Notes under the pieces: model-generated | Told to the model about the DNA's origin: nothing | Databases searched by the model: none | Seen by the model: only the letters and a program-made list of their open reading frames with translations | Program-made: the position numbers and the translations under genes | Part shown: piece by piece, positions 546 to 15,915 of the stretch | Numbering within the stretch: position 1 is the stretch's first letter | Layout of the letters: the number at the start of each line of letters is the position of its first letter | Origin: Gammaproteobacteria bacterium | GTDB taxonomy: Bacteria > Pseudomonadota > Gammaproteobacteria > Tenderiales > Tenderiaceae | Assembly: GCA_027001525.1 (NCBI GenBank) | Contig: JALTMR010000279.1 | Location: 1-16,166, forward strand | Reading direction: 5' to 3' | DNA: 16,166 nt

Positions 546-2501
546 CTATTCACTGGCTACATCCACGCTGGTGTCGACCGTATAGGTCAGTTGTCCCCCC
601 TTCAGGGTGAAGGGGTGGATGCAGGCTTCCACGGTGCTGTCCCAATTGCCTTGTTGGGCAGAGACATTTTCGAATTGCTCGACCGTACCGTCCCCGTCAA
701 GATCCTCACCGCTGGGGATGTAGGTTGAAGTGTCGGGATCCCAGGTTTCCTGATACGTCAGGTTTCTGACGACTCCCGTTTCAAAGACACTCACCACTCC
801 GTCCCCGTTCAAGTCGTCGCCGCTGATCGTCGTATCATTCCAGTAGTAGCTGTTGTTATACTCGCCAGCGATCCATTGAGACGTCTCCTCATCCCAGGCG
901 TAGTTGGCACTCAGGTTGGTATTGTTGAAGCTCAGGGTTCGGCAGTCGGGGCCGCTGGCGTTGGCGCTTTTGGCTTTGAGCCCGGCTTTCAGAGCGATGT
1001 TATCCAGTGCCAACGCTCTCCTGATGGCGGCTACCTGCACCGGCGCAGGGCCAGGGGCGTTGTAACTGGGGGCCTCTGCCCCCGTATAGCCGTTGCTGGC
1101 GGAGTTGCCGACCACCACGTACTCGACGATCGAACCGACGATTGTACTGCCATCGGTGGCTACAGTTTCCCTGGCCAGGTCAAAGATCGGGCTCTCGTCA
1201 TTGGGTTGTGAAATCACCTCCTCATCGACCGAAAAATTGGCGAGGTAGAGGGGCTCGTAGGTGCCTGTGTCAGGGTTGTAGTAACTGGTTGACCATTGGT
1301 ACGTGTTCTCTTCGGGTGCCGGGGTGTAGACGTAATTGGTGCCGTCATCCACGGGTTCCCCCGGCCCATCGCTGTAGCCGCCATAGCCAAGTTCCTGCGC
1401 TTCGTAGCGCGCTACGGTGAACAGGCCGGCTTCAAATCCATCCCTGTTTCCTGTGTCGTACTCTCCGTTATAGGACGAGAAGGAGATGCTCATTGAGCCA
1501 AGGTCTACATGGGCGATATTGGTGTTGGTTGCACCGTCGAACTCATGCAATACGACCCCGACGTTTCCTTCCATGTAGGTGCATTGTTCTCTTAACGCCG
1601 AACACAGCTGACCGTACTGGGATGGGGTGTATACGTCCTCGTTCCCGGCACCATCATCCTGACGAATGAACATGCCGTAACCAAAGCGGCCTATCGCCTC
1701 CCAGGGCGAGACGTCGCCGGCGGCCGAGGCGCTGGCGTATTCGCCATAGCCATCAAAACCTGACAGGCCGGGCATACCGATTAAATGAACGCCTTTAATG
1801 GGGGCTTCAGTTAACCCCAGTGCTGCGGCAGCTGACTCCACTGTGTCGGGGGTGGATGGATCCCAGTCAAGTGGCTGCTGTCCTTCAGTGTCCGGGTCGA
1901 TGTCCACCAGATCGGTGCGATTGAGCAGAAGAAGCTCCAGTGGTGCGTCGACATTGTCAGCATCCTTAAACGTCCAGGTGCCGTGCAGCATGTTGAGTAC
2001 GACCGAGTTGTCACCTGAGACCAGTTCGCCCAAGGTCACCGCTTCACTGATGGGCCTGTTGTTTTCCAGGCCGGCATCGTCGAACTGCGAGGCGATGATG
2101 CGATAGGGCCCAGGGATGAGTGAAACGGACTGAGACGGTGAGGCGGCGTTGAGATAGAATTCACTGACCAGTGTCTCTTCGCTGTAGCCGCCGTAGCCGT
2201 TGTATTCATCATAATAACCGCCGTAATTGTTCTGCTGGCTAAAGTAGTCGCCCCAGTTGCTGACCTCCGTAGCGTATACCTGAATCCGGATGGAGGTTGC
2301 ATTTTCATCAATGACGGCCGCCTGGGCGCTTCCCGCTGCCGGAAAGGCGGCGCTAAATGTAACGTTAGCGCTGGATTTCGTCTCGCTCTGTGCCGCGGCT
2401 GGTGCAGTGGGTGCGGCAGCGTTATCCGTAGCAGAATTACACCCGACCAGGCCGGTTGCCAACAGGCTGCTGATGACGATGGCAATTTGTTTTTTTCTCA
2501 T
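546..2501 (-). CDS. Tyr/Gly-rich lipoprotein with EF-hand-type calcium loops, unknown function
   Basis: With the start at 2501 the product has 651 residues and a clear lipoprotein signal (MRKKQIAIVISSLLATGLVGC; lipid-bearing Cys at 21). An in-frame ATG at 2549 would add 16 residues and also has a G-rich ribosome site (ggggggag), but it would put a long tail before the signal; gggag precedes the 2501 ATG. An Ala-rich linker follows. Then comes a beta-rich region with Tyr/Gly repeats (NNYGGYYDEYNGYGGYSEE, later GYGEY and GYGGYSDG). Near the C-terminus are two Asp-rich loops, DLNGDGVVSVFE and DLDGDGTVEQFE, matching the 12-residue calcium pattern of EF-hand/dockerin loops. Each follows a segment with a WNDTT- or WDPDTSTY-like motif, so the end looks like a tandem repeat. 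The gene starts 63 bp after the larger lipoprotein gene and is probably co-transcribed with it. I do not recognise a family. An outer-membrane or surface role is inferred from the lipobox. Confidence 0.8.
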   Translation of the reverse strand: MRKKQIAIVISSLLATGLVGCNSATDNAAAPTAPAAAQSETKSSANVTFSAAFPAAGSAQAAVIDENATSIRIQVYATEVSNWGDYFSQQNNYGGYYDEYNGYGGYSEETLVSEFYLNAASPSQSVSLIPGPYRIIASQFDDAGLENNRPISEAVTLGELVSGDNSVVLNMLHGTWTFKDADNVDAPLELLLLNRTDLVDIDPDTEGQQPLDWDPSTPDTVESAAAALGLTEAPIKGVHLIGMPGLSGFDGYGEYASASAAGDVSPWEAIGRFGYGMFIRQDDGAGNEDVYTPSQYGQLCSALREQCTYMEGNVGVVLHEFDGATNTNIAHVDLGSMSISFSSYNGEYDTGNRDGFEAGLFTVARYEAQELGYGGYSDGPGEPVDDGTNYVYTPAPEENTYQWSTSYYNPDTGTYEPLYLANFSVDEEVISQPNDESPIFDLARETVATDGSTIVGSIVEYVVVGNSASNGYTGAEAPSYNAPGPAPVQVAAIRRALALDNIALKAGLKAKSANASGPDCRTLSFNNTNLSANYAWDEETSQWIAGEYNNSYYWNDTTISGDDLNGDGVVSVFETGVVRNLTYQETWDPDTSTYIPSGEDLDGDGTVEQFENVSAQQGNWDSTVEACIHPFTLKGGQLTYTVDTSVDVASE

Positions 2502-2564
2502 GGCCTTTCTCCCTTTAGCGCTGTGATTGGTTAGCGCACTATTTTTCATCTTGACTCCCCCCTT

Positions 2565-5336
2565 TTACTGGACGATGACGTTGACGTTGCCGGGCGCGCC
2601 AACTCTGATGACGAACGAGCTCGTGCTGCTTGCCCCTTCGCTATCGGTAACGGTCAGTTGAACGTCGTGAGTACCACTGGCAAGTGAGCCGGTTGCGATG
2701 ACGGCAGAAGAGCCGCTGAGCGATAGCGCACCACCATCGATTGACCAGGCGTAGGCTGTTTCGCCAAGCGCGTCGGCATCATCAATGGCCGCAGCCTGCA
2801 GGTTTATCTCTGTTGCGTTGGTATCGCTGCCATCGGTCTCGGTGGCGATTGGATCAGCATAGGCGTAGACAATAAACGGTGCCTGGTTTTGCTGGACAGT
2901 GACAGCCACTATGCCTGTGGCCGTTTGTGCTGTGCCGGCTGTAGGAACGTCTGTGACTTCGACTGAAATGTCGTTAACCGCACCCGCCGTGACAGAAAAA
3001 GTACACTCCGGGGTATCACCACAGGCGGAGTTGCTCCAGGCGTAGGTGAGCGGGTTGCCATCCGGATCATAGGCGGAGACGCGGTAGGTCAACTCTCCTG
3101 CCCGGCTGTAGTCATCGCACGTCAGCGAGCCGCTTGTACGATAACAGTAGAGATACTCCAGGTCACCTGCATCGGATACCCGGTTGATGTCAACGATGAT
3201 CGGTTTGCGATTGTCAGCATCATCCACCTCGATAGTGCCAGTGGCGGATGCGGACTTATTACCGTCTGAGGCAGTGACCGTCCAGTTGTAGGTGCCGGCA
3301 GCCGTTGCCTGGAACTGCATTCCAACGTATGTGCTGACACTGCTGGCTGTGGCTGGATCGACAAAGTCACACGTATCGGCAGGGGTACATTCCCAGGTCA
3401 GGCTGACATCAGTACTGTCTGCATCGTAGGCCCAGCCCCAGAAATCAGCAGTCGCCATGCCGGTACTGCTATAGAACGTTGCCGTGGTGGGGCCGGAGAC
3501 TGAAATGATGGGGGCCTGGTTCGCGATGCTGAAATTAATGACTGCTTCACTACCGTCATCGCTGGCCTCATCGTTGCCCTGTGCGCCATTTACGTTGCCC
3601 ACTTTCTCGATTGAGCTATCACCCCAGGTCTGAACGGTAATGTTGCGGCCGCAGGGCACATCGAAAGCGTATTGGCCTTCAGCATCCGTACTGGCCCAAC
3701 GCCAGTAGCCGTTAGCGTCAGAGGCAAACATGGAACGGTTTTGGGCGGGGCTACTGTCTGTTGCCAGCTGAACTTGCCCTGTCAGGCGGCACTGTTGCGG
3801 GTTCTCCAGCGCAATGGTGCCAAAATCGTTACAGGTGCTGCCGGTGCCGTCGTCAGTAAGAATTGGATTGTTAAAGGATGAGGTGCCAAGCGCTTCATTA
3901 GCGTAGGTGCGGTCATTCCAGATGTTAAAAGACCAGTTGGCAGGATCAAGTGTGTCTGGGCTGTTGGAGTCGAGCAACGTTTGGTGTGAAATGACCCCCT
4001 CGGTGATGTAGGCCCATTCATACCCGCCATCAGGCAGTTGTACATCCATATAGCCGGAGAAAGGCGTCTGCTGATCGCCGCTGTAGCGGACATTGCCGCT
4101 GAAGCAGACATTTTGAATATTGGAGCTGGCACGAATAGGCCAATCCAGATTAACCCACTGTACCCACTCATTGGCTTCTTCAATGGTGATGCGGACATAG
4201 ACGGTATCTGTTGGTGCGATGGGCAAACCCTGGCCATACTCCTGATAGGCGGTGCCGTTATATTCCACCAGTGAGCCATTACCGACGAATTTCCAGCCAC
4301 CCGAATAGACGTAGATGGGCACTTGAATGCCTGAAATCGTCGGGTCGCGATCCTCTGTAATATTTTCATAGCTGTCTGCGGGGACTTGCAGGTACATCAC
4401 CGCATTATCGCTGGCTGCGGCCGAAGCGCCGCTGGCGGTGTTAAGCCCCAACGTGTTGCCATCCTGGTCTTGAAGTTTGATCTGGGCAAATACACTGGAG
4501 ATCAGGCGGTACTCATCTGTTTCGGCAGCAGCGCTGGCTCCTCCGAGATTCATTGAAATCCCATCCCCTGGCTGATCGGGATCACCCTCACCGATGAAGT
4601 CTCCGGGGAATGCTTGCACCTGATTTACGTCGTTAGGATCAAAATGCGCGAGCCCCGCCGTGATGGCGTCGACATCATCAGCAACTCTGTCGACCGGGAT
4701 GGTTAAATCCAGTAGCGTCTCGTGTGAAGCTGCAGCACGCGCCTGGTCGAACTGGGCACCGGCCACCATCGCAACCTCCCCGTTACCGCGGTTTCTGACC
4801 AGGCCAAATCTAAATGCTGGTGTCCCAGAGGCGGTGAAGCCGCCGGCCAGGTCGTTGCGCGAAAGTGTGGCGACGTTCTCTCGGGCCAGCCTGACCAGGG
4901 CGTTGAGGTCACTGTCTGAGCTGAGGTTTCTGAAGACTTTATTGCTGGTGACGTAGCCATCCTTGTTGGTGATGACTTCGATCCACGAGGGAAATTTTCC
5001 TGTCGCTTCACTGTAATCCGGCAGTGGTGTGTAGTAAGCGCCATTTTCGTCCGTTGTCGCGAGAAAGCGATCAATTTCGGTATCGTCAGCAGCGTAGACC
5101 ACGACCGTGACGCTGGCCCCTTCAATCCGGTCCCCCGCGCTGCCATGGGCCGCCGCCGTGGTGGCTCCCGTATTCAAACTATTAACCGACCCGCTCAGTG
5201 ATATACCGGAAAGGGTTTGTGTTGCGGGTTGAGAGGGTGGGGGCGTCGAGGTATTGTCCGAACCGCCACCACCGCTGCAAGCGGCGAGCGATGCCAATAG
5301 GGACAACGTGAGTAGTGATTTAAAGTGGAGCTTCAT
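2565..5336 (-). CDS. Large lipoprotein with three C-terminal PKD/Ig-like domains
   Basis: This 923-residue protein starts with a lipoprotein signal (MKLHFKSLLTLSLLASLAAC; Cys20) and a Gly/Ser/Pro linker. Residues about 68-135 resemble a carboxypeptidase-regulatory-like beta sandwich (GASVTVVVYAADDTEIDRF, then TDENGAYYTPLP). A second such unit lies at about 516-604 (LTGQVQLATDSSP, then TDAEGQYAFDVPCG). Three PKD-type domains end the chain at about 607-706, 711-816 and 817-914. Each opens with NQAP or RKP and carries YDxD or DDAD turns; the last ends with HDVQLTVTDSEG. Several Cys pairs in the middle suggest disulfides outside the cytoplasm. A good ribosome site, gagggagg, precedes the ATG. No enzymatic motif is visible. 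PKD domains are common in surface proteins and secreted hydrolases, so adhesion or substrate binding is plausible. It heads the run that includes the second lipoprotein and the subtilase-like gene. Confidence 0.82.
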   Translation of the reverse strand: MKLHFKSLLTLSLLASLAACSGGGGSDNTSTPPPSQPATQTLSGISLSGSVNSLNTGATTAAAHGSAGDRIEGASVTVVVYAADDTEIDRFLATTDENGAYYTPLPDYSEATGKFPSWIEVITNKDGYVTSNKVFRNLSSDSDLNALVRLARENVATLSRNDLAGGFTASGTPAFRFGLVRNRGNGEVAMVAGAQFDQARAAASHETLLDLTIPVDRVADDVDAITAGLAHFDPNDVNQVQAFPGDFIGEGDPDQPGDGISMNLGGASAAAETDEYRLISSVFAQIKLQDQDGNTLGLNTASGASAAASDNAVMYLQVPADSYENITEDRDPTISGIQVPIYVYSGGWKFVGNGSLVEYNGTAYQEYGQGLPIAPTDTVYVRITIEEANEWVQWVNLDWPIRASSNIQNVCFSGNVRYSGDQQTPFSGYMDVQLPDGGYEWAYITEGVISHQTLLDSNSPDTLDPANWSFNIWNDRTYANEALGTSSFNNPILTDDGTGSTCNDFGTIALENPQQCRLTGQVQLATDSSPAQNRSMFASDANGYWRWASTDAEGQYAFDVPCGRNITVQTWGDSSIEKVGNVNGAQGNDEASDDGSEAVINFSIANQAPIISVSGPTTATFYSSTGMATADFWGWAYDADSTDVSLTWECTPADTCDFVDPATASSVSTYVGMQFQATAAGTYNWTVTASDGNKSASATGTIEVDDADNRKPIIVDINRVSDAGDLEYLYCYRTSGSLTCDDYSRAGELTYRVSAYDPDGNPLTYAWSNSACGDTPECTFSVTAGAVNDISVEVTDVPTAGTAQTATGIVAVTVQQNQAPFIVYAYADPIATETDGSDTNATEINLQAAAIDDADALGETAYAWSIDGGALSLSGSSAVIATGSLASGTHDVQLTVTDSEGASSTSSFVIRVGAPGNVNVIVQ

Positions 5337-9865: not shown

Positions 9866-10029
9866 GGAACAGGTTAAAGAAATTGTCTCTCCTGACGAGA
9901 AAACAAAAACAAAGGAAAAGCGCCTCTTTTTGTACTATTTTCTATAGAAGGTGTTGTATCTTACTCAAAAATATGAGAAAAGAGCCGTTTGGGGCGGGTT
10001 GCAGGAATGACCGATGGGCAAGAGATAAT

Positions 10030-11421
10030 ATGGCCAGTGTGACAAGACAATTTTGCTCGCTTTTTATCGCTGTTCTGGCGCTGTTCGCCGGGTTTTCGGG
10101 TGTTGCCTTTGGTGCGGCGGCCAAATACCAGACCCTGCGTCTGGATCAGCAGACCGGTTCACTAAAACTCAGCATGGAGTTGAGTGAGTCAGTTAAGTAC
10201 AAGTATTTCTCCCTCTCCAAGCCCGACCGCTTTGTGGTGGATCTGCTCGATGTGGTGCCCACCGGCCGCAGCCCTCAGTTGAATTATTCCGACACGCCCA
10301 TCAAGGGCATCCGCCTGGGGATTCGCAAGGGTGATGATCTGCGCATGGTGGTTGATCTGCGTCAGTCGCTGGTGGCCGATGTCTACCTCGAAGCGGTGCC
10401 CGGCACCAAACGCCAGCGCTTGGTGGTGGAGATGAAGGGGTTCAAATCGCCGAAGCCCGTGGTGAAGGCCGGATCCAAGCCTGCACAGAAAGCGGTGGCA
10501 GTGAAAAAGCCACAGGCCGAGCGCCGGCCCGCCCAGGTTAAAAAGGTGGTGCGCCGGGCAGCTCCCTATCGGGATATCGTTATCGCTATTGATGCCGGTC
10601 ACGGCGGCGGTGACCCCGGCGCCCGGGGCCATAACGGTACTTATGAGAAGAATGTCACCCTCGCCATTGCCCGTCGTCTGGAAAAGCTGGTGGAGCGGGA
10701 GCCCGGTATGCGCCCGGTGATGATTCGTACGGGCGATCAGTACATTGGCCTGCGTCAGCGGATCGAGAAGGCACAGATGAATAACGCCGATCTCTTCATC
10801 TCCATTCACGCCGATGCGTTCGATGATCGCAGGGTGCGGGGGACTTCCGTTTACACGCTGTCACGCCGGGGAGCGACCACTGAAGCGGCGCGTTTGCTGG
10901 CCGACCGGGAGAACTCGTCTGACATTATCGGTTTTCTGGCCGGTGATCAGGACGACATGCTGGCCTCGGTGCTGATCGATCTCTCTCAGAACGCGACGAT
11001 TGAATCGAGCATGGACGTGGCTGCCCGGGTGCTCAAGCACATGAGCCAGGTGAATCCGCTGCACAAGCGCCGGGTGGAGCAGGCGGGTTTTGTGGTACTG
11101 AAGTCCCCCGACATCCCCTCTATTCTGGTGGAAACGGCCTTTATCTCTAACCCTGATGATGAGAAAAACCTGCTCTCGTCGCGCCATCAGCAGAAAATGG
11201 TCAACGCCATCATGAAAGGCGTGCGCAGCTACTTTAATGCCAACCCGCCGCAGGGAACGCGGGTTGCGGGGCGGGAACATGTGATTCGGCGTGGTGATAC
11301 CCTGACCGCCATTGCCGCCCGTTATGACGTGAGCCTGCGGACACTGCGCCAGGCGAACCAGCTCAGCAGTGACCAGCTCTATGTGGGGCGGGTGCTGCAC
11401 ATACCGCTCACTGGCAGTTAA
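10030..11421 (+). CDS. amiB: N-acetylmuramoyl-L-alanine amidase with AMIN and LysM domains
   Basis: This periplasmic zinc amidase cleaves the stem peptide from muramic acid to split daughter cells. From the ATG at 10030 it has 463 residues: a signal peptide (MASVTRQFCSLFIAVLALFAGFSGVAFG), an AMIN domain at about 33-136, a Lys/Pro/Ala linker to about 179, Amidase_3 from about 180 to 402 and a LysM domain at about 417-459 (HVIRRGDTLTAIAARYDVS). Expected zinc ligands and catalytic residues are His191 (DAGHGG), Glu206 (GTYEKN), His260 (FISIHADA) and Glu368 (VETAFISN). An inhibitory-helix region like that of AmiB/AmiC, relieved by EnvC or NlpD in the family, is plausible around 290-330. The reading frame is open upstream to an ATG at 9883, but that stretch is AT-rich, lacks amidase-like sequence and would bury the signal peptide, so I prefer 10030. 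Confidence 0.95.
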   Translation: MASVTRQFCSLFIAVLALFAGFSGVAFGAAAKYQTLRLDQQTGSLKLSMELSESVKYKYFSLSKPDRFVVDLLDVVPTGRSPQLNYSDTPIKGIRLGIRKGDDLRMVVDLRQSLVADVYLEAVPGTKRQRLVVEMKGFKSPKPVVKAGSKPAQKAVAVKKPQAERRPAQVKKVVRRAAPYRDIVIAIDAGHGGGDPGARGHNGTYEKNVTLAIARRLEKLVEREPGMRPVMIRTGDQYIGLRQRIEKAQMNNADLFISIHADAFDDRRVRGTSVYTLSRRGATTEAARLLADRENSSDIIGFLAGDQDDMLASVLIDLSQNATIESSMDVAARVLKHMSQVNPLHKRRVEQAGFVVLKSPDIPSILVETAFISNPDDEKNLLSSRHQQKMVNAIMKGVRSYFNANPPQGTRVAGREHVIRRGDTLTAIAARYDVSLRTLRQANQLSSDQLYVGRVLHIPLTGS

Positions 11422-11463
11422 CGGCTCGCTCTGCGGTGGCTGGGAGCCTCGTGCCCTGTCGCG

Positions 11464-11469
11464 TATAAT
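11464..11469 (+). promoter_or_regulatory. Candidate -10 box for mutL
   Basis: A perfect TATAAT lies 33 bp before the mutL ATG, in the 80-bp gap after amiB. No strong -35 is at the right distance (tgggag at 11441). A short ccgg...ccgg inverted repeat follows in the leader. Confidence 0.45.
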
Positions 11470-11501
11470 CGCCGGTCTTTGGCCGGAATTCATCATCTCC
11501 C

Positions 11502-13328
11502 ATGCGTATCCATAAACTTTCTGCTCACCTTGCTAACCAGATTGCCGCAGGCGAGGTGGTGGAGCGCCCCTCATCGGTGGCCAAAGAGTTGATTGAAAAC
11601 AGTCTGGATGCCGGCGCATCCCGGATCGATCTGGAGATCGAGAAGGGGGGCACCGGGCTGATCCGGGTGCGCGACAACGGCAGCGGCATCCATCGTGATG
11701 ACCTGCCCAGTGCGCTGGATCGTCACGCCACCAGCAAGATTTCCGATTTTGATGATCTGGTGAAGGTGAGCACGCTCGGCTTTCGGGGGGAGGCGTTGCC
11801 CAGTATCGGCTCCGTGTCGCGCGTTACGCTGACCTCCCGTTACAAGGGTGAGACCCAGGCATGGACCTATTCCGTCAACGGTGGCGATGCCGACACCGCT
11901 CCCAAGCCTGCGGCTCATCCGCCGGGGACGACCATTGATGTGCGTGACCTTTTCTTCAATACGCCGGCGCGGCGAAAATTTCTGAAAACTGAACGCACGG
12001 AATTCAACCACCTCGACGATGTGGTTCGGCGTATCGGTCTGTGCCGTTTCGACGTCGCCCTCTCTATCAAACACAATCAACGCCAGGTGCATCACTGGCG
12101 CGTCGCTGATGACCTTGAAGCCAGGCGGCGGCGAGTGGCCGCTATTTGTGGTGCGGCGTTTGTGGAGAATTCGGTGGAAGTGAACGTTGAGGCGTCCGGG
12201 CTGCGGCTGTGGGGCTGGGTGGGGCTGCCTACTTTTTCCCGCAGTCAGGCAGATTTGCAGTATTTCTACGTCAATGGTCGCATGGTGAAGGACAAGCTCA
12301 TCGCCGCCGCCGTGCGCAAAGCCTATCAGGATGTGATGTACCACGGTCGTCACTCGGCCTTTGTCCTCTATTTCGAATTGGACCCGGCGGAGGTGGATGT
12401 CAACGTCCACCCCACCAAGCACGAGGTGCGTTTCAGAGAGGGGCGTCTGGTGCACGACTTTCTCTTCAGGAGTCTCTACCGGGCGCTGGCCGAGGTTCGC
12501 CCCGGCGATGAGCCTGCCGCCGCACACCCCGCCGCGCCGGCGCAGACATTGGCCCCGGCGTCACTTGCGCCGGGTAATCCGCAGGCCACATCGTCGCCAC
12601 CCGCCGCTTTCAAGCCCCAATATTCGCCCCGCCATCAGCAGCCCATGGGCTTGTCAGTGCAGGAACAGGTCAGCACCTACGGCCAGCTCTACCCTCAGCC
12701 GGGGGAGCAGGCGTCAGCTGCACAGCCTCAAGCAGAAGCGGCGCCACCGCTGGGGTTTGCGCTGGCGCAGCTGCACGGTATCTACATTCTGGCCCAGAAT
12801 GCCGATGGCCTGGTGCTGGTGGACATGCACGCCGGCCATGAGCGGGTGACCTATGAGCGCATGAAGCAGGCATGGCAGGCGGCCGAGAAGGTGTGTATTC
12901 AGCCGCTGTTGGTGCCTGAGTCCCTGAAGGTAAGCCCGGCGGAGGCTCAGCGGGTGGAGGATCAGGCGGATCTGCTCAAACGCCTGGGCCTGGAGCTTGA
13001 CCGGGTTGGCCCCGAAACCTTGCTGATTCGGGCCGTGCCGGCCATGCTGCGCCATGCAGATGCCAAAGCTCTGGTGCAGGATGTGCTGTCAGACTTTGCT
13101 GTTGAGGGGGAGAGTCGCCGCATTGAAGATCGGCTGAACGCTATCCTGGCCACCATGGCGTGCCATGGTTCAGTGCGCGCCAGTCGCCAGTTGACCCTGC
13201 CGGAGATGAACGCCTTGCTGCGCGATATGGAGCGTACCGAGCGCAGCGGGCAGTGTAATCATGGCCGACCCACCTGGGTGCAGCTGTCCATGGATGAGCT
13301 GGACAGGCTCTTTTTGCGTGGCCGTTAG
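11502..13328 (+). CDS. mutL: DNA mismatch repair protein MutL, endonuclease-type
   Basis: MutL links mismatch recognition by MutS to strand incision and removal. The 608-residue protein has the GHKL ATPase motifs [11 protein letters not shown] (28-38, catalytic Glu29 and Mg-binding Asn33), RDNGSGI (57-63), ATSKI (76-80) and [10 protein letters not shown] (92-101). A Pro/Ala/Gln-rich linker spans about 335-415. The C-terminal domain contains [12 protein letters not shown] (441-452), fitting the metal-site motif DxHA-x2-E-x4-E, plus ACHGSVRA (553-560) and CNHGRP (585-590), which correspond to the other conserved endonuclease-site motifs. E. coli-type MutL proteins lack this site and use MutH, so this one probably nicks DNA itself. 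It has no clear Shine-Dalgarno site. The miaA and hfq genes that follow mutL in E. coli are absent here. Confidence 0.97.
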
Positions 13329-13364
13329 GCGACGGCTGCTGATAAAACAGAAGGAAATGCCGGA

Positions 13365-14492
13365 ATGAGGAAACTATCCACCGTGGTCCTGGTGGCCGCC
13401 CTGGTAAGCCAGCTGGGCTGTATGTCCAGCGCCATTAAAGAGGCTGAGTTGCCGCCATTGTCGCCAGAGGTGCAGAGCCGTTTTGCCAAACTTCCCCCCG
13501 CCGCAGTCATTGCTGATGCCGAGGCGCAGATCAAGGCGGCCTATATTGCTCAGTTGGACTTCTACTCTCCGCAGTACCTCAAGCGTGCTGAAGAGGCACT
13601 AAAGGCCGCGAAAAAAGAGGCCAGGAGCCAAAAGCCGGGCCAGCGGGGCGAGCTGGTCTACATCCTCGCCCTGGAGGCGGCGCTAGCGCGGGCCGCAGAG
13701 ACCAAGTCTGCCGTTCTGGCGCAGATGAGCGATGTTTTTAAGCTTCGTGACGCTCTGGACAGGGTGGATGCTGGTCACTACAAAAAGCGCACCTACGACA
13801 AACTGATGAGCCGGATTCAGGAGCTGATCTCCCATATTGAGGCGGAGCGAAGCGATAAGTTTGCCGCCAAGTTGCCGGTGCTGATTGAGGACATGACGGA
13901 GTTTGAGACCCACACTATTGTCCATAATGCGTTATACCCGGCCGCACTGGCGCTGGAGGAGGCGGAAGATGTGGATGCAGATGATTACGCCCCCCGGTCG
14001 TTTGCAAAAGCAGAGTTGACCTACGAACGGGCCGAAAAGCGAATTCGGGCCAACCCCCACGATGCTTCGACTGTGACACGCTTGGGCAATGAGGCGCTGG
14101 TTGAAGCCCGACACGCTTTCTATGTCTCCCGGGCGGTAGCCGCATTGCAAGAGGTTAAGCGGGATAAGCTGGAGCGCATCGTGCTGGACGAAGAGCAGCG
14201 TCTGGGCCAGATCGCCACGGTGCTTTCCATCAACCCGATCTATGATCGTTCCCTGCCGGACCAGGCCCTGACCCTGGTAGAAGCGGTTGCGGATCTGGTG
14301 AAGTCAGTGAAGGCTCAGCAGGTACCTGTATCCACTTCTGACACTTCCGAAGGCAAACTGTCGGCGGCAGAAGAGCGATTGGCGGGGGAGGAGACGTCTG
14401 AGGTTAGCGCAGAGCAGCACGACGAAGCTGACTTGCCGGTCTCTGAATTTTTTGATCTGTCTGAGGTGTTGACCGAAGAGCCGGCCAAGTAA
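13365..14492 (+). CDS. Helical lipoprotein, probably DUF4398-like, unknown function
   Basis: The 375-residue product has a lipoprotein signal (MRKLSTVVLVAALVSQLGC; Cys19) and is then almost entirely charged helix. Two segments look alike: YSPQYLKRAEEALKAAKKEA (67-86) and YAPRSFAKAELTYERAEKRI, the latter followed by a LGNEALVEARHAFYVS stretch. The pattern 'YaP-x-x-x-x-kAe-x-x-x-x-A' recalls DUF4398-type envelope proteins. I name the resemblance only and know no function. The last 50 residues are acidic and look disordered. The ribosome site is aagga. The gene lies 36 bp after mutL. Its TAA stop (14490-14492) overlaps the T tract of the converging small-RNA terminator, so plus-strand read-through would make RNA antisense to copy A. 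Confidence 0.8.
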   Translation: MRKLSTVVLVAALVSQLGCMSSAIKEAELPPLSPEVQSRFAKLPPAAVIADAEAQIKAAYIAQLDFYSPQYLKRAEEALKAAKKEARSQKPGQRGELVYILALEAALARAAETKSAVLAQMSDVFKLRDALDRVDAGHYKKRTYDKLMSRIQELISHIEAERSDKFAAKLPVLIEDMTEFETHTIVHNALYPAALALEEAEDVDADDYAPRSFAKAELTYERAEKRIRANPHDASTVTRLGNEALVEARHAFYVSRAVAALQEVKRDKLERIVLDEEQRLGQIATVLSINPIYDRSLPDQALTLVEAVADLVKSVKAQQVPVSTSDTSEGKLSAAEERLAGEETSEVSAEQHDEADLPVSEFFDLSEVLTEEPAK

Positions 14493-14612
14493 AAAAGGGT
14501 GCGCATGGGATACAGGAGGGGGAGGAGGCGTCTTTGATCAGTCAATGGAGGGGGAGGAGCTGATCGAAGACAATCCCATGCGCACCAGAGTGTTCACTTG
14601 TCGTTAACACCC
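14491..14612 (-). ncRNA. Small RNA copy A with C-rich anti-Shine-Dalgarno loops
   Basis: The RNA is proposed to run from about 14610 down to 14491, roughly 120 nt. A small 5' hairpin (GUGUU/AACAC) is followed by a perfect 14-bp outer stem pairing 14573-14586 with 14498-14511. Inside it is a 12-bp inner stem (14560-14571 with 14530-14541, one C-A mismatch on this strand). Two C-rich stretches stay unpaired: the inner apical loop (14542-14559, CTCCTCCCCCTCC...) and the strand joining inner and outer stems (14512-14529, GCCTCCTCCCCCTCC...). The outer stem is followed by six T, a good intrinsic terminator. Copy B shares the architecture, and the 5' hairpin shows a paired change (U-A here, C-G in B). 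The strand call rests on the T tract and the shared upstream promoter block. Stem wobbles alone do not decide it. Confidence 0.75.
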
Positions 14613-14616
14613 CGTC

Positions 14617-14622
14617 AGTATC
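14617..14622 (-). promoter_or_regulatory. -10 box of small RNA copy A
   Basis: On the minus strand this reads GATACT. It aligns exactly with CATAAT of copy B, and both stand 12 bp from the first half-site of the array. The -35 position (TTTTCT) is poor, as in activator-dependent promoters. Confidence 0.55.
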
Positions 14623-14633
14623 TCTCTTTTTAC

Positions 14634-14683
14634 CTATAAAGAAAAATCGAAATTTTCTATCGTACCTATAGCTAAATGACTAT
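14634..14683 (-). promoter_or_regulatory. Five-element ATAG/CTAT operator upstream of small RNA A
   Basis: On the plus strand the elements are CTAT 14634-14637, ATCG 14646-14649 (a one-base variant), CTAT 14657-14660, ATAG 14668-14671 and CTAT 14680-14683. The gaps are 8, 7, 7 and 8 bp. The CTAT-N7-ATAG core fits the LysR-type T-N11-A rule, and the helical-turn spacing suits a tetramer. Copy B has the same gaps. The neighbouring LysR-type regulator is the obvious candidate binder. Confidence 0.65.
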
Positions 14684-14703
14684 GCATGTTGGCGTGTGCT
14701 CTG

Positions 14704-14724
14704 ACGGCCTGACAAGTCAGCCGT
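14704..14724. other. Hairpin in the spacer between the two small RNA units
   Basis: ACGG-c-CTGA and TCAG-CCGT arms pair around a CAAG loop with one bulged C. It lies upstream of the copy A operator and has no counterpart in copy B and no T run on either strand. Its role is unknown. Confidence 0.4.
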
Positions 14725-14776
14725 TGTGAGGGCAGCCACTCAGATTTATTCATTTCAACAGAAAGAGATAAAGGAG

Positions 14777-14900
14777 AATAAAAGAAGAGCGCGCATGGGG
14801 TAGGGGGGAGGAGGCGTCTTAAAATCAGAGTAAGGGGGGAGAGGAGCTGATTCAAGACTGTCCCATGCGCGCTACAGCGCTCACTTGTTGTGAGCACGGG
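14777..14900 (-). ncRNA. Small RNA copy B with C-rich anti-Shine-Dalgarno loops
   Basis: This diverged sibling of copy A probably starts near 14898 and ends near 14777. The 5' hairpin is longer here: GUGCUCAC pairs with GUGAGCGC around AACAA. The outer stem pairs 14862-14873 with 14788-14799. The inner stem joins 14847-14858 with 14816-14828 and has a small bulge. C-rich unpaired stretches are 14829-14846 (CTCCTCTCCCCCC...) and 14802-14815 (GCCTCCTCCCCCCT). The tail CTTCTTTTATTC follows the outer stem. The stem bases differ from copy A while pairing is kept, and the C-rich segments are conserved in position, which argues for a functional RNA rather than a protein. Its promoter faces away from the LysR-type gene, giving a divergent pair. 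Confidence 0.75.
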
Positions 14901-14904
14901 GTGG

Positions 14905-14910
14905 ATTATG
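14905..14910 (-). promoter_or_regulatory. -10 box of small RNA copy B
   Basis: On the minus strand this reads CATAAT, five of six matches to the sigma-70 consensus. The -35 position (TTTTAT) is poor. Placement relative to the operator is identical to copy A. Confidence 0.6.
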
Positions 14911-14921
14911 GTGCTATTTAT

Positions 14922-14971
14922 CTATAAATAAAAATAGAAAATATCTATTATACTTATAGATAATCTACTAT
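14922..14971. promoter_or_regulatory. Five-element CTAT/ATAG operator between small RNA B and the LysR-type gene
   Basis: Plus-strand elements are CTAT 14922-14925, ATAG 14934-14937, CTAT 14945-14948, ATAG 14956-14959 and CTAT 14968-14971, with gaps of 8, 7, 7 and 8 bp. All five are exact. The array ends 14 bp before the regulator's ATG, so the regulator's own promoter must overlap it; autoregulation is therefore likely. An extra CTAT lies at 14914-14917. The ATAG-N7-CTAT-N7-ATAG spacing recalls the published OxyR site pattern. Confidence 0.7.
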
Positions 14972-14985
14972 ACGTTGGAGGCGAG

Positions 14986-15915
14986 ATGATCAAAATCAGA
15001 AACGCAACATTCAGGCAGCTGCAAGTGTTTGAATCGATTGCCCGTAATGGCTCTTTCACTGCGGCGGCAGAGGAGCTGTTTTTGACTCAGCCCACCCTCT
15101 CCATGCAGATGAAAAAGCTCACCTCCATTGTCGAGACCCCTCTCTATACCCAGGTGGGCAAAAAAATCTACCTGACCGAGGTGGGGGAAGAGCTGCAGAA
15201 AACCTGTCGTTCGGTGTTTGCGACGTTGGATGACTTCCAGATGACGGTCTCTGACATTAAGGGGGTCAAAAAGGGGAACTTACGAATTTCCGGCGTGACG
15301 ACGGGCGAGTATTTCGTTCCCCGCATTCTTGGTGCCTTTTGCAAGAAATACCCGGGTATCAACGTCTCCCTTGAGGTGACCAACCGGCAGCGGGTCATCG
15401 AGCGGCTGGAAAGCAATATGGATGATATCTACATCGTGGGCCAGGCCCCCATGGGGGATCACATCCACCGGGTGCCTTTTCTGAAAAACCCACTGGTTAT
15501 TCTTGCGCCTCCGCAGCACCCTCTCGCCAAGGAGAAAAATATCCCGATCGAAGCCTTAGCAGATGAAAATTTCATCATGCGTGAGCCGGGTTGTGGCACG
15601 TTCCTCTCGATGGATCGGCTCGTCAAAGACAGGCATTTCGGCTTTAAAAGCAGCATGGCCCTGGGGAGTAACGAGGCCATTAAACAGGCGGTGATCGGGG
15701 GGCTGGGGATTTCATTGCTCTCGGTCTACGCACTCACCCACGAGATTGCCAGCGGTGAGGTGGCCGTGCTGGATGTGGAGGGATTCCCGGTGCAGGATTG
15801 CTGGTATCTCTGTTACCCCGAAGGGCAAAAACTCTCCGTTGTGGCGCAGGTTTTCTACGAGTTTATGCTCAACGAGGGGCGCGAGATGACGGTGTATTCC
15901 CTGCCGGAGCAGTGA
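14986..15915 (+). CDS. LysR-type transcriptional regulator, CbbR-like
   Basis: The 309-residue protein has an N-terminal winged helix-turn-helix (about 8-65) with the family signature TFRQLQVFESIARNGSFTAA and LTQPTLSMQMKKL. An effector-binding domain follows from about 95 (GNLRISGVTTGEYFVPRIL, later GLGISLLSVYAL). The overall wording resembles CbbR, which controls CO2-fixation genes in autotrophs, but no Calvin-cycle gene is in the window and the effector cannot be told. It lacks the paired redox Cys of OxyR: a Cys in the REPGCGTF stretch has no partner at OxyR's spacing. The ribosome site ggagg ends 4 nt before the ATG. It is divergent from the two small RNAs and begins right at their operator, so it is their likely regulator. 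The stop is 1 bp from that of a converging gene. Confidence 0.93.
   Translation: MIKIRNATFRQLQVFESIARNGSFTAAAEELFLTQPTLSMQMKKLTSIVETPLYTQVGKKIYLTEVGEELQKTCRSVFATLDDFQMTVSDIKGVKKGNLRISGVTTGEYFVPRILGAFCKKYPGINVSLEVTNRQRVIERLESNMDDIYIVGQAPMGDHIHRVPFLKNPLVILAPPQHPLAKEKNIPIEALADENFIMREPGCGTFLSMDRLVKDRHFGFKSSMALGSNEAIKQAVIGGLGISLLSVYALTHEIASGEVAVLDVEGFPVQDCWYLCYPEGQKLSVVAQVFYEFMLNEGREMTVYSLPEQ

Follow-up and report, generated by a model that had tools for sequence, protein, structure and literature searches.

Known members of the CbbR/CmpR family of LysR-type regulators control RuBisCO or bicarbonate genes. What, then, does such a regulator do when, as in one clade of that family and unlike in those systems, the nearest features divergent from its gene are small RNAs (sRNAs)? 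This question is raised by the window analysed here, a stretch of 16,166 nucleotides (contig JALTMR010000279.1) from a gammaproteobacterium of the family Tenderiaceae, in which two tandem units on the minus strand lie beside a LysR-type gene on the plus strand. The answer that we favour, and regard as likely when taken as a whole, is that the regulator activates trans-acting RNAs directed against ribosome-binding sites; regulator and RNAs would then constitute a conserved, apparently undescribed LysR-sRNA module. In what follows, G-numbers denote genomes of the comparison set (G000 is that of the window), and f1 is the family of the window, represented by 11 genomes.

Structure and direction of the two RNA units

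The units (14491-14683 and 14780-14971, minus strand, about 192 bp each) are identical at 143 of 189 aligned bases (75.7%), and in both of them an operator and a -10 box are followed by a 5' hairpin, a long stem, inside which lie an inner stem and the C-rich loops, and finally a U tract. The description of this locus made previously from the letters alone (hereafter the sequence-only reading) had proposed tandem siblings built in the same order, and this is upheld by their identity as well as by the folds, U tracts, -10 boxes and operators. The distal sRNA (14491-14610, about 120 nt) ends in six U, and its start is placed by the -10 box; the LysR-proximal sRNA (14780-14898) has its start placed in the same way and its end set at an imperfect U tract. 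A covariance model built from 14 aligned copies, two of the window and twelve of relatives, matches them at 14489-14586 with 65.7 bits and at 14779-14873 with 65.4 bits, respectively.

The outer stem of the distal RNA is formed by a 5' arm at 14573-14586 and a 3' arm at 14498-14511; the corresponding arms of the proximal RNA lie at 14862-14873 and 14788-14799. Within this stem each RNA carries a C-rich inner loop, CUCCUCCCCCUCC at 14547-14559 in the distal and CUCCUCUCCCCCC at 14834-14846 in the proximal RNA, with predicted unpaired probabilities of 0.90 and 1.0, and a second C-rich stretch, CCUCCUCCCCCUCCU at 14514-14528 and CCUCCUCCCCCCU at 14802-14814, with values of 0.99 and 0.98. The proximal RNA was folded as a read-through transcript for this purpose, because of its imperfect U tract. 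The predicted exposure of anti-Shine-Dalgarno loops thus agrees with what had been proposed. Two other elements of that proposal hold in part only: two C-rich stretches per RNA are present in the window genome and in an orphan copy of G001, whereas in most f1 relatives a single long C-rich inner loop is seen, and the strong 5' hairpin is found in the window, the G001 orphan, the full copy of G002, the second copy of G010, G081 and G210, while the majority of f1 relatives have it in weak form or not at all.

Both RNAs are predicted to be considerably more stable than expected by chance, with minimum free energies of -48.3 (distal) and -45.2 kcal/mol (proximal), z-scores of -7.08 and -8.14, and none of 200 dinucleotide shuffles as stable as either. 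Their direction is indicated by the U tract on the 3' side and by the -10 box and operator on the 5' side, all read on the minus strand. The 14 source copies of the model score 65-83 bits in this direction, which is partly so by construction, and at most 22.6 bits in the opposite one. In all, 22 transcripts were folded; three of them ran into the next unit, and another unit lacked an end within its contig. The fold z-scores lie between -2.3 and -9.1, and the unpaired probability of the C-rich stretches is 0.54-1.0 versus 0.21-0.51 elsewhere, a comparison that carries no shuffle control for exposure.

The expectation that the stems would be conserved in relatives is borne out by the outer stem, which in 15 model-aligned copies is 97.2% paired, with both sides changed at 8 of 12 pairs. 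The covariation score of the whole structure, obtained from an alignment that was itself fitted to the structure, is 0.291; shuffles give 0.168 (none of 500 reaches the observed score), and sliding the structure gives at most 0.157. RNAalifold predicts the same outer stem from this alignment, with 9 of 13 pairs doubly changed; the inner stem is not predicted by it. Indeed, the inner stem (helix 2) is only 60% paired there, because the first alignment placed it out of register. When counted per sequence, an ungapped inner helix of 5-8 bp is present in all 15 copies, and shuffles (200 for each) equal its score 0-17 times. The weakest cases are one G010 copy (11 of 200 shuffles) and the distal RNA of the window (17 of 200), where a mismatch, which the measure does not bridge, breaks a longer helix.

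A small peptide starting at an AUG in the stem was considered as well and rejected, since this AUG is absent from the second copies of G005 and G004 and no conserved reading frame therefore begins there. As a separate observation, the stop codon (14490-14492) of a convergent lipoprotein-like gene (13365-14492), which has no Pfam match, falls within the A tract encoding the U tract of the distal RNA, so that this gene and the RNA overlap at their 3' ends.

Promoters and operator

The promoter of the proximal RNA is preceded by a recognition-type palindrome, ATAG-N8-CTAT (14956-14971, minus strand, 8/8 matches), which also lies 15-30 bp upstream of the LysR start codon, and by an activation-type site, TTTCTATTTTTATTTATA (14923-14940, from the genome pattern scan and the promoter stack); its -10 box is CATAAT (14905-14910). 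The distal promoter repeats this array on the same strand with the palindrome ATAGTCATTTAGCTAT (14668-14683, promoter stack), an activation-type site at 14635-14652 (part of a 2-mismatch pattern match at 14617-14652) and the -10 box GATACT (14617-14622). Both -10 boxes were found by the pattern scan and the promoter stack.

A stack of twenty RNA promoters was built on a TTTATA-N12-CATANT-like anchor, whose spacing was set by the search; the second unit of G081, the first unit of G008, the G002:C81 copy and G062 do not fit the anchor and stand outside the stack. ATAG-N8-CTAT, with at least six of its eight bases, is present at about -73 to -58 in 18 of the 20, as counted from the start placed by the -10 box, although the anchor does not select for it. 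Other offsets have it in 0 to 3 promoters, and shuffles in 0.24 on average and 2 at most. LysR regulators recognize a site near -65 and activate from one near -35. The palindrome therefore stands at the textbook position of a LysR recognition site, and the predicted operator geometry is that of a LysR-activated sRNA promoter, as had been suggested by the earlier description of an operator array before each RNA.

The pattern composed of the downstream site and the -10 box (three mismatches allowed) was then found 21 times in 15 genomes, 17 times at these RNAs, versus a single match in the reversed control. The matches at the RNAs are expected by construction, and the informative part is the scarcity elsewhere. 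All eight perfect matches are at the RNAs, and only four of the 21, in G002, G010, G062 and G210, lie away from them. The two-contig genome of G004 has two matches, both at its RNAs, and G003 and G007 have none.

The LysR-type regulator and its clade

The divergent gene (14986-15915, plus strand) encodes a LysR-type protein of 309 amino acids with the Pfam domains HTH_1 and LysR_substrate, for which orthologs were found. It matches the CbbR structure 5y2v of PDB ('Rubisco operon transcriptional regulator') with an E value of 2.7e-96 and CmpR (5z49) with 2.8e-61; the best NCBIfam model is CbbR as well, with 236 bits, below the 450-bit cut-off of that model. By its two domains and its closest kinship, the protein is assigned to the CbbR/CmpR family. 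Together with the divergent linkage, the Pfam and 5y2v matches support the pairing of the RNAs with a CbbR-like regulator.

In a tree of 53 proteins, the 13 RNA-linked LysR proteins are placed in one group inside the CbbR family (support 98/86), which is kept in 98% of bootstrap trees. No RuBisCO match was found in the fetched loci of these 13 genes, with flanks of about 1.5 kb or less, and their nearest neighbours, judged by eye, look unrelated to Calvin-cycle or bicarbonate genes. The sister group of the RNA-linked clade (L138, L149, L150, L016) appears to face other, uncharacterised protein genes; these targets might reveal what the ancestral regulator controlled.

Conservation and linkage

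When the 11 f1 genomes were searched with the model, the RNA was found in nine (G000, G001, G002, G004, G005, G006, G008, G009 and G010), and these are the ones that possess the LysR gene itself or an ortholog 75-78% identical to it. In the two genomes lacking this LysR, the covariance model gave no convincing RNA, with a best E value of 0.07 in G003 and no match in G007. The first RNA copy is decayed in G008 and apparently split across contig ends in G002. In G001, an orphan RNA copy with a similar operator (G001:C31:7658-7822, L004) is present, and the LysR ortholog is on C60, which would make it a second sibling in trans.

When the covariance model was applied with strict filters to 229 genomes of the class, matches at E 0.01 were obtained in four, G000, G002, G098 and G081. 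In G081, a member of another family, about 140 bp separate the match from a LysR ortholog of 78% identity, and a second unit is located behind it; the search in relatives envisaged by the sequence-only reading thus did find the RNA beside LysR orthologs, also outside f1. The matches in G098 and at G009:C117 turned out on inspection to be plain terminator hairpins and were discarded. Three weaker matches, in G000, G003 and G008, have E values of 0.03-0.08.

A search starting from the regulator leads to the same linkage. Among 369 genomes of the class, eight have a LysR match at E 1e-115 (G000, G002, G004, G031, G062, G081, G210 and G314), and C-rich RNAs are found on the divergent side in all of them except G031, whose LysR is 57% identical and faces a protein gene that reads, by eye, as a SulP-type transporter. 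All 13 LysR loci with an identity of 58.7% or more have C-rich RNAs on the divergent side. In 41 other loci (33-57% identical; 40 distinct, one being listed twice, and a subset of the LysR matches), a test on up to 450 bp, not folded, found a single short C run in four and none in 37. A protein search indicates at least 94 relatives at E 1e-120, at least 65 of them with 70% identity or more, the window's own included.

The stems diverge while the C-rich loops persist in G081, G210, G314 and G062. The single RNA of G062 (174 nt; L095:1206-1379, minus strand) has three such loops, unpaired CCCUCCCUU stretches at 0.98-1.0. The two long units of G314 (L094) appear as C-rich RNAs of 216 and 231 nt, both with CAACGAUCCUCCUUU, a sequence which we take to resemble the 3' end of 16S rRNA.

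The surroundings change from genus to genus. As read by eye, the flanking genes are lipoprotein-like on the MutL side in the window, YdcF-like and HrpB-like in G004, desulfurase-like in G001, RimP/NusA-like in G002 and fumarase-like in G081, and flanks are partly shared within genus g5. Since flanking genes differ among genera, the LysR-RNA pair evidently stays together as its surroundings change.

Proposed mechanism, targets and alternative explanations

According to the model which we propose, the CbbR-family LysR would bind ATAG-N8-CTAT centred near -65 and the adjoining AT-rich site near -35, and activate in this way the two tandem sRNA genes divergent from its own, which it probably represses through the shared proximal site. 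Each RNA of about 120 nt would be a trans-acting base-pairing regulator, a stem-loop ending in an intrinsic terminator and exposing CUCCUCCCCC-type stretches. By pairing with GGAGG ribosome sites, probably together with Hfq, these stretches would reduce the translation of target mRNAs; having two siblings may provide dosage and partly distinct reach. Hfq is present in 16 of 16 genomes, and intrinsic terminators with U tracts are found at the RNAs. Matches to the RuBisCO family, obtained with a model that also covers RuBisCO-like proteins, occur in 15 of these 16 genomes and are only weak or partial in G001 and G006; the miss is G008, which is 77% complete. Given the CbbR family of the regulator and these matches, it is probable that the circuit makes post-transcriptional repression responsive to a Calvin-cycle or redox metabolite.

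Several results weigh against this model. The U tract of the window's proximal RNA is imperfect, the operator pattern has no match in G008 although this genome bears the module, and the sole match of G062 is not at its RNA. The search for targets was hardly more favourable: GGGGAGGAG-N(3-10)-ATG occurred 20 times in 9 genomes versus 15 times in the reversed control, and one of the 20 is the complement of an RNA itself. A handful of these matches lie at plausible starts, several of them named by eye: in G002, a transketolase-type chain reading like the E1-beta subunit of pyruvate dehydrogenase; in G009, citrate synthase and an FMN-binding RnfG-like protein; in G004, a gene that follows an oxidase-like one; and in G000, a 39-residue open reading frame and one with a methyltransferase domain. 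Two of them were followed in orthologs and rejected. Long complementarity at citrate synthase (25 loci of 16 genomes listed, the G008 copy with almost no upstream sequence) is present in one G009 copy and in G314, and not in the rest of f1. For the G004 gene, G-rich sites were found in most of 13 orthologous loci, including those of the RNA-less G003 and G007. Thus, neither the pattern search in 9 genomes nor the two candidate ortholog sets gave a clearly enriched or conserved target.

It might therefore be supposed that the RNAs, real and LysR-controlled as they would be, act as sponges, their C-rich loops titrating a protein or G-rich RNAs instead of blocking ribosome sites. This we judge unlikely, although the missing enrichment of long complementary sites and of a conserved target speaks in its favour. 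Seeds of 6-8 nt would escape a 9-nt pattern search, and the core of the loops matches the anti-Shine-Dalgarno motif of NfeR1, which, in the available part of the published account, silences mRNA at the initiation region (PMC10746234).

A different problem is which regulator acts on the operator. ATAG-N8-CTAT (at least 7/8) is present upstream of 10 of the 13 RNA-linked LysR genes and also of 11 among 40 further LysR genes of the same type, one of which, in G032, faces a RuBisCO gene; the palindrome would thus be a CbbR-type operator, with some cross-talk possible. If so, the RNAs could be controlled by another CbbR of the cell, the adjacent LysR being mainly self-regulating. We give this explanation little credence. 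G003 and G007 possess RuBisCO-family and other CbbR-type genes, but neither a convincing RNA nor an operator match, and the two CbbR-type genes located beside RuBisCO-family genes in the window genome have no palindrome of at least 7/8 in the 200 bp upstream.

RNAs such as RsmY and RsmZ sequester CsrA/RsmA through GGA-rich loops, and the plus strand of our units, which is rich in GGA motifs and also folds well (z-scores of -5.25 and -6.26), could be read as such a sponge; this is very improbable and was rejected on the strand signals (U tracts, -10 boxes and operators) and the model scores described above. Equally improbable is that the units are palindromic repeats or unused terminators devoid of a regulatory role, as the decayed copy in G008 and the orphan in G001 might suggest, for the convincing copies number one or two per genome and almost all adjoin the LysR gene, with operator, -10 box and compensatory changes.

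Activation by the adjacent LysR and pairing with ribosome sites thus remain our preferred explanation. More tentatively, and with slightly more doubt than belief, we suggest that in RuBisCO-bearing Gammaproteobacteria this CbbR-type clade gave up protein-coding targets and works via sRNAs only; the basis is the G004 genome, where the operator pattern occurs at the two RNAs and nowhere else. If this were true, anti-Shine-Dalgarno RNAs would convey the carbon-fixation status to the proteome, as an RNA arm of CbbR-type control that arose independently of the LsrB-NfeR1 system of rhizobia. The known role of CbbR-type regulators is to switch RuBisCO and carbon-uptake genes, and the paired clade would add a post-transcriptional layer to the control of carbon fixation in autotrophs. 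With its conserved operator, set of RNAs and orthologs, the module is directly testable in a cultured relative.

Other genes of the window

The region 9883-14492 contains amidase-like and mutL-like genes (by eye), followed by the lipoprotein-like gene and the module. Many Gammaproteobacteria have miaA-hfq at that position after mutL; Hfq of the window's genome is encoded on another contig, G000:C162. Two large tandem lipoprotein-like open reading frames of 667 and 923 amino acids occupy 546-5336 of the minus strand.

Comparison with known systems

The RNAs had been described as unrecognised, and this stands: a search of the whole window gave no match to an Rfam family at E 1, and no account of this LysR-sRNA module came up among open-licence papers on CbbR or LysR regulators with sRNAs, on C-rich motifs or on the sRNAs of autotrophs. 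Loci of seven relatives gave a single Rfam match, to a microRNA model, with 26.5 bits against a cut-off of 80. Both alpha-r14 and AbcR have Rfam models. The analogy drawn by the sequence-only reading, an OxyR/OxyS-like circuit, proved less apt. GcvA-GcvB and OxyR-OxyS combine a LysR regulator with a divergent single sRNA, with other seeds and from other LysR subfamilies, and the nearest published circuits that we found are LsrB-NfeR1 and VtlR-AbcR. As to CbbR and CmpR themselves (5y2v, 5z49), they belong to the same sequence family, and the operator palindrome recurs before the genes of some relatives of this type.

The nearest known mechanism is that of LsrB-NfeR1 in Sinorhizobium meliloti, where, according to the available portion of the report, a LysR regulator activates an sRNA with three CCUCCUCCC anti-Shine-Dalgarno loops and divergent stems, which silences ntrB at its initiation region (PMC10746234); the loop motif appears also in the accessible part of PMC3927594. 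As in NfeR1 (alpha-r14), CCUCCUCCC occurs unpaired in both RNAs of the window, within the second of their C-rich stretches, and a LysR-type regulator is associated with an sRNA of repeated motifs and divergent stems. Unlike NfeR1, described there with three hairpins bearing identical motifs, the window RNAs consist of a 5' hairpin and one nested stem-loop; the RNA of G062, the only one with three motif-bearing unpaired stretches, comes closest to it in form. The rhizobial circuit is alphaproteobacterial and LsrB acts in it together with NtrC, whereas the regulator of the module is CbbR-type and divergent from tandem siblings with no Rfam match, and it adjoins its RNAs, while the part of the text at hand does not place lsrB beside nfeR1 (PMC10746234).

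The nearest gene layout is that of VtlR and AbcR1/AbcR2 in Agrobacterium, a LysR gene with tandem sibling sRNAs next to it, of which one is activated directly by the regulator (PMC7486931). In the sections of that paper at our disposal, VtlR recognizes the box GCAT-N3-TG-N3-T, the sRNAs are downstream of vtlR and only the abcR1 promoter is bound (PMC7486931), unlike here, where ATAG-N8-CTAT precedes both siblings. The nearest sibling principle is represented by NgncR_162/163 of Neisseria, whose single-stranded regions block ribosome sites of metabolic mRNAs; no adjacent LysR circuit is described in the available text (PMC9973317), and kinship with these RNAs was compared via Rfam only.

What is new, then, is the RNA family and its pairing with a CbbR-type regulator, and not the kind of mechanism. 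The module apparently evolved separately from LsrB-NfeR1, in Gammaproteobacteria with RuBisCO-family genes, which would suggest that the combination of a LysR regulator with a multi-loop C-rich sRNA arose more than once, its loops being kept while the stems turn over.

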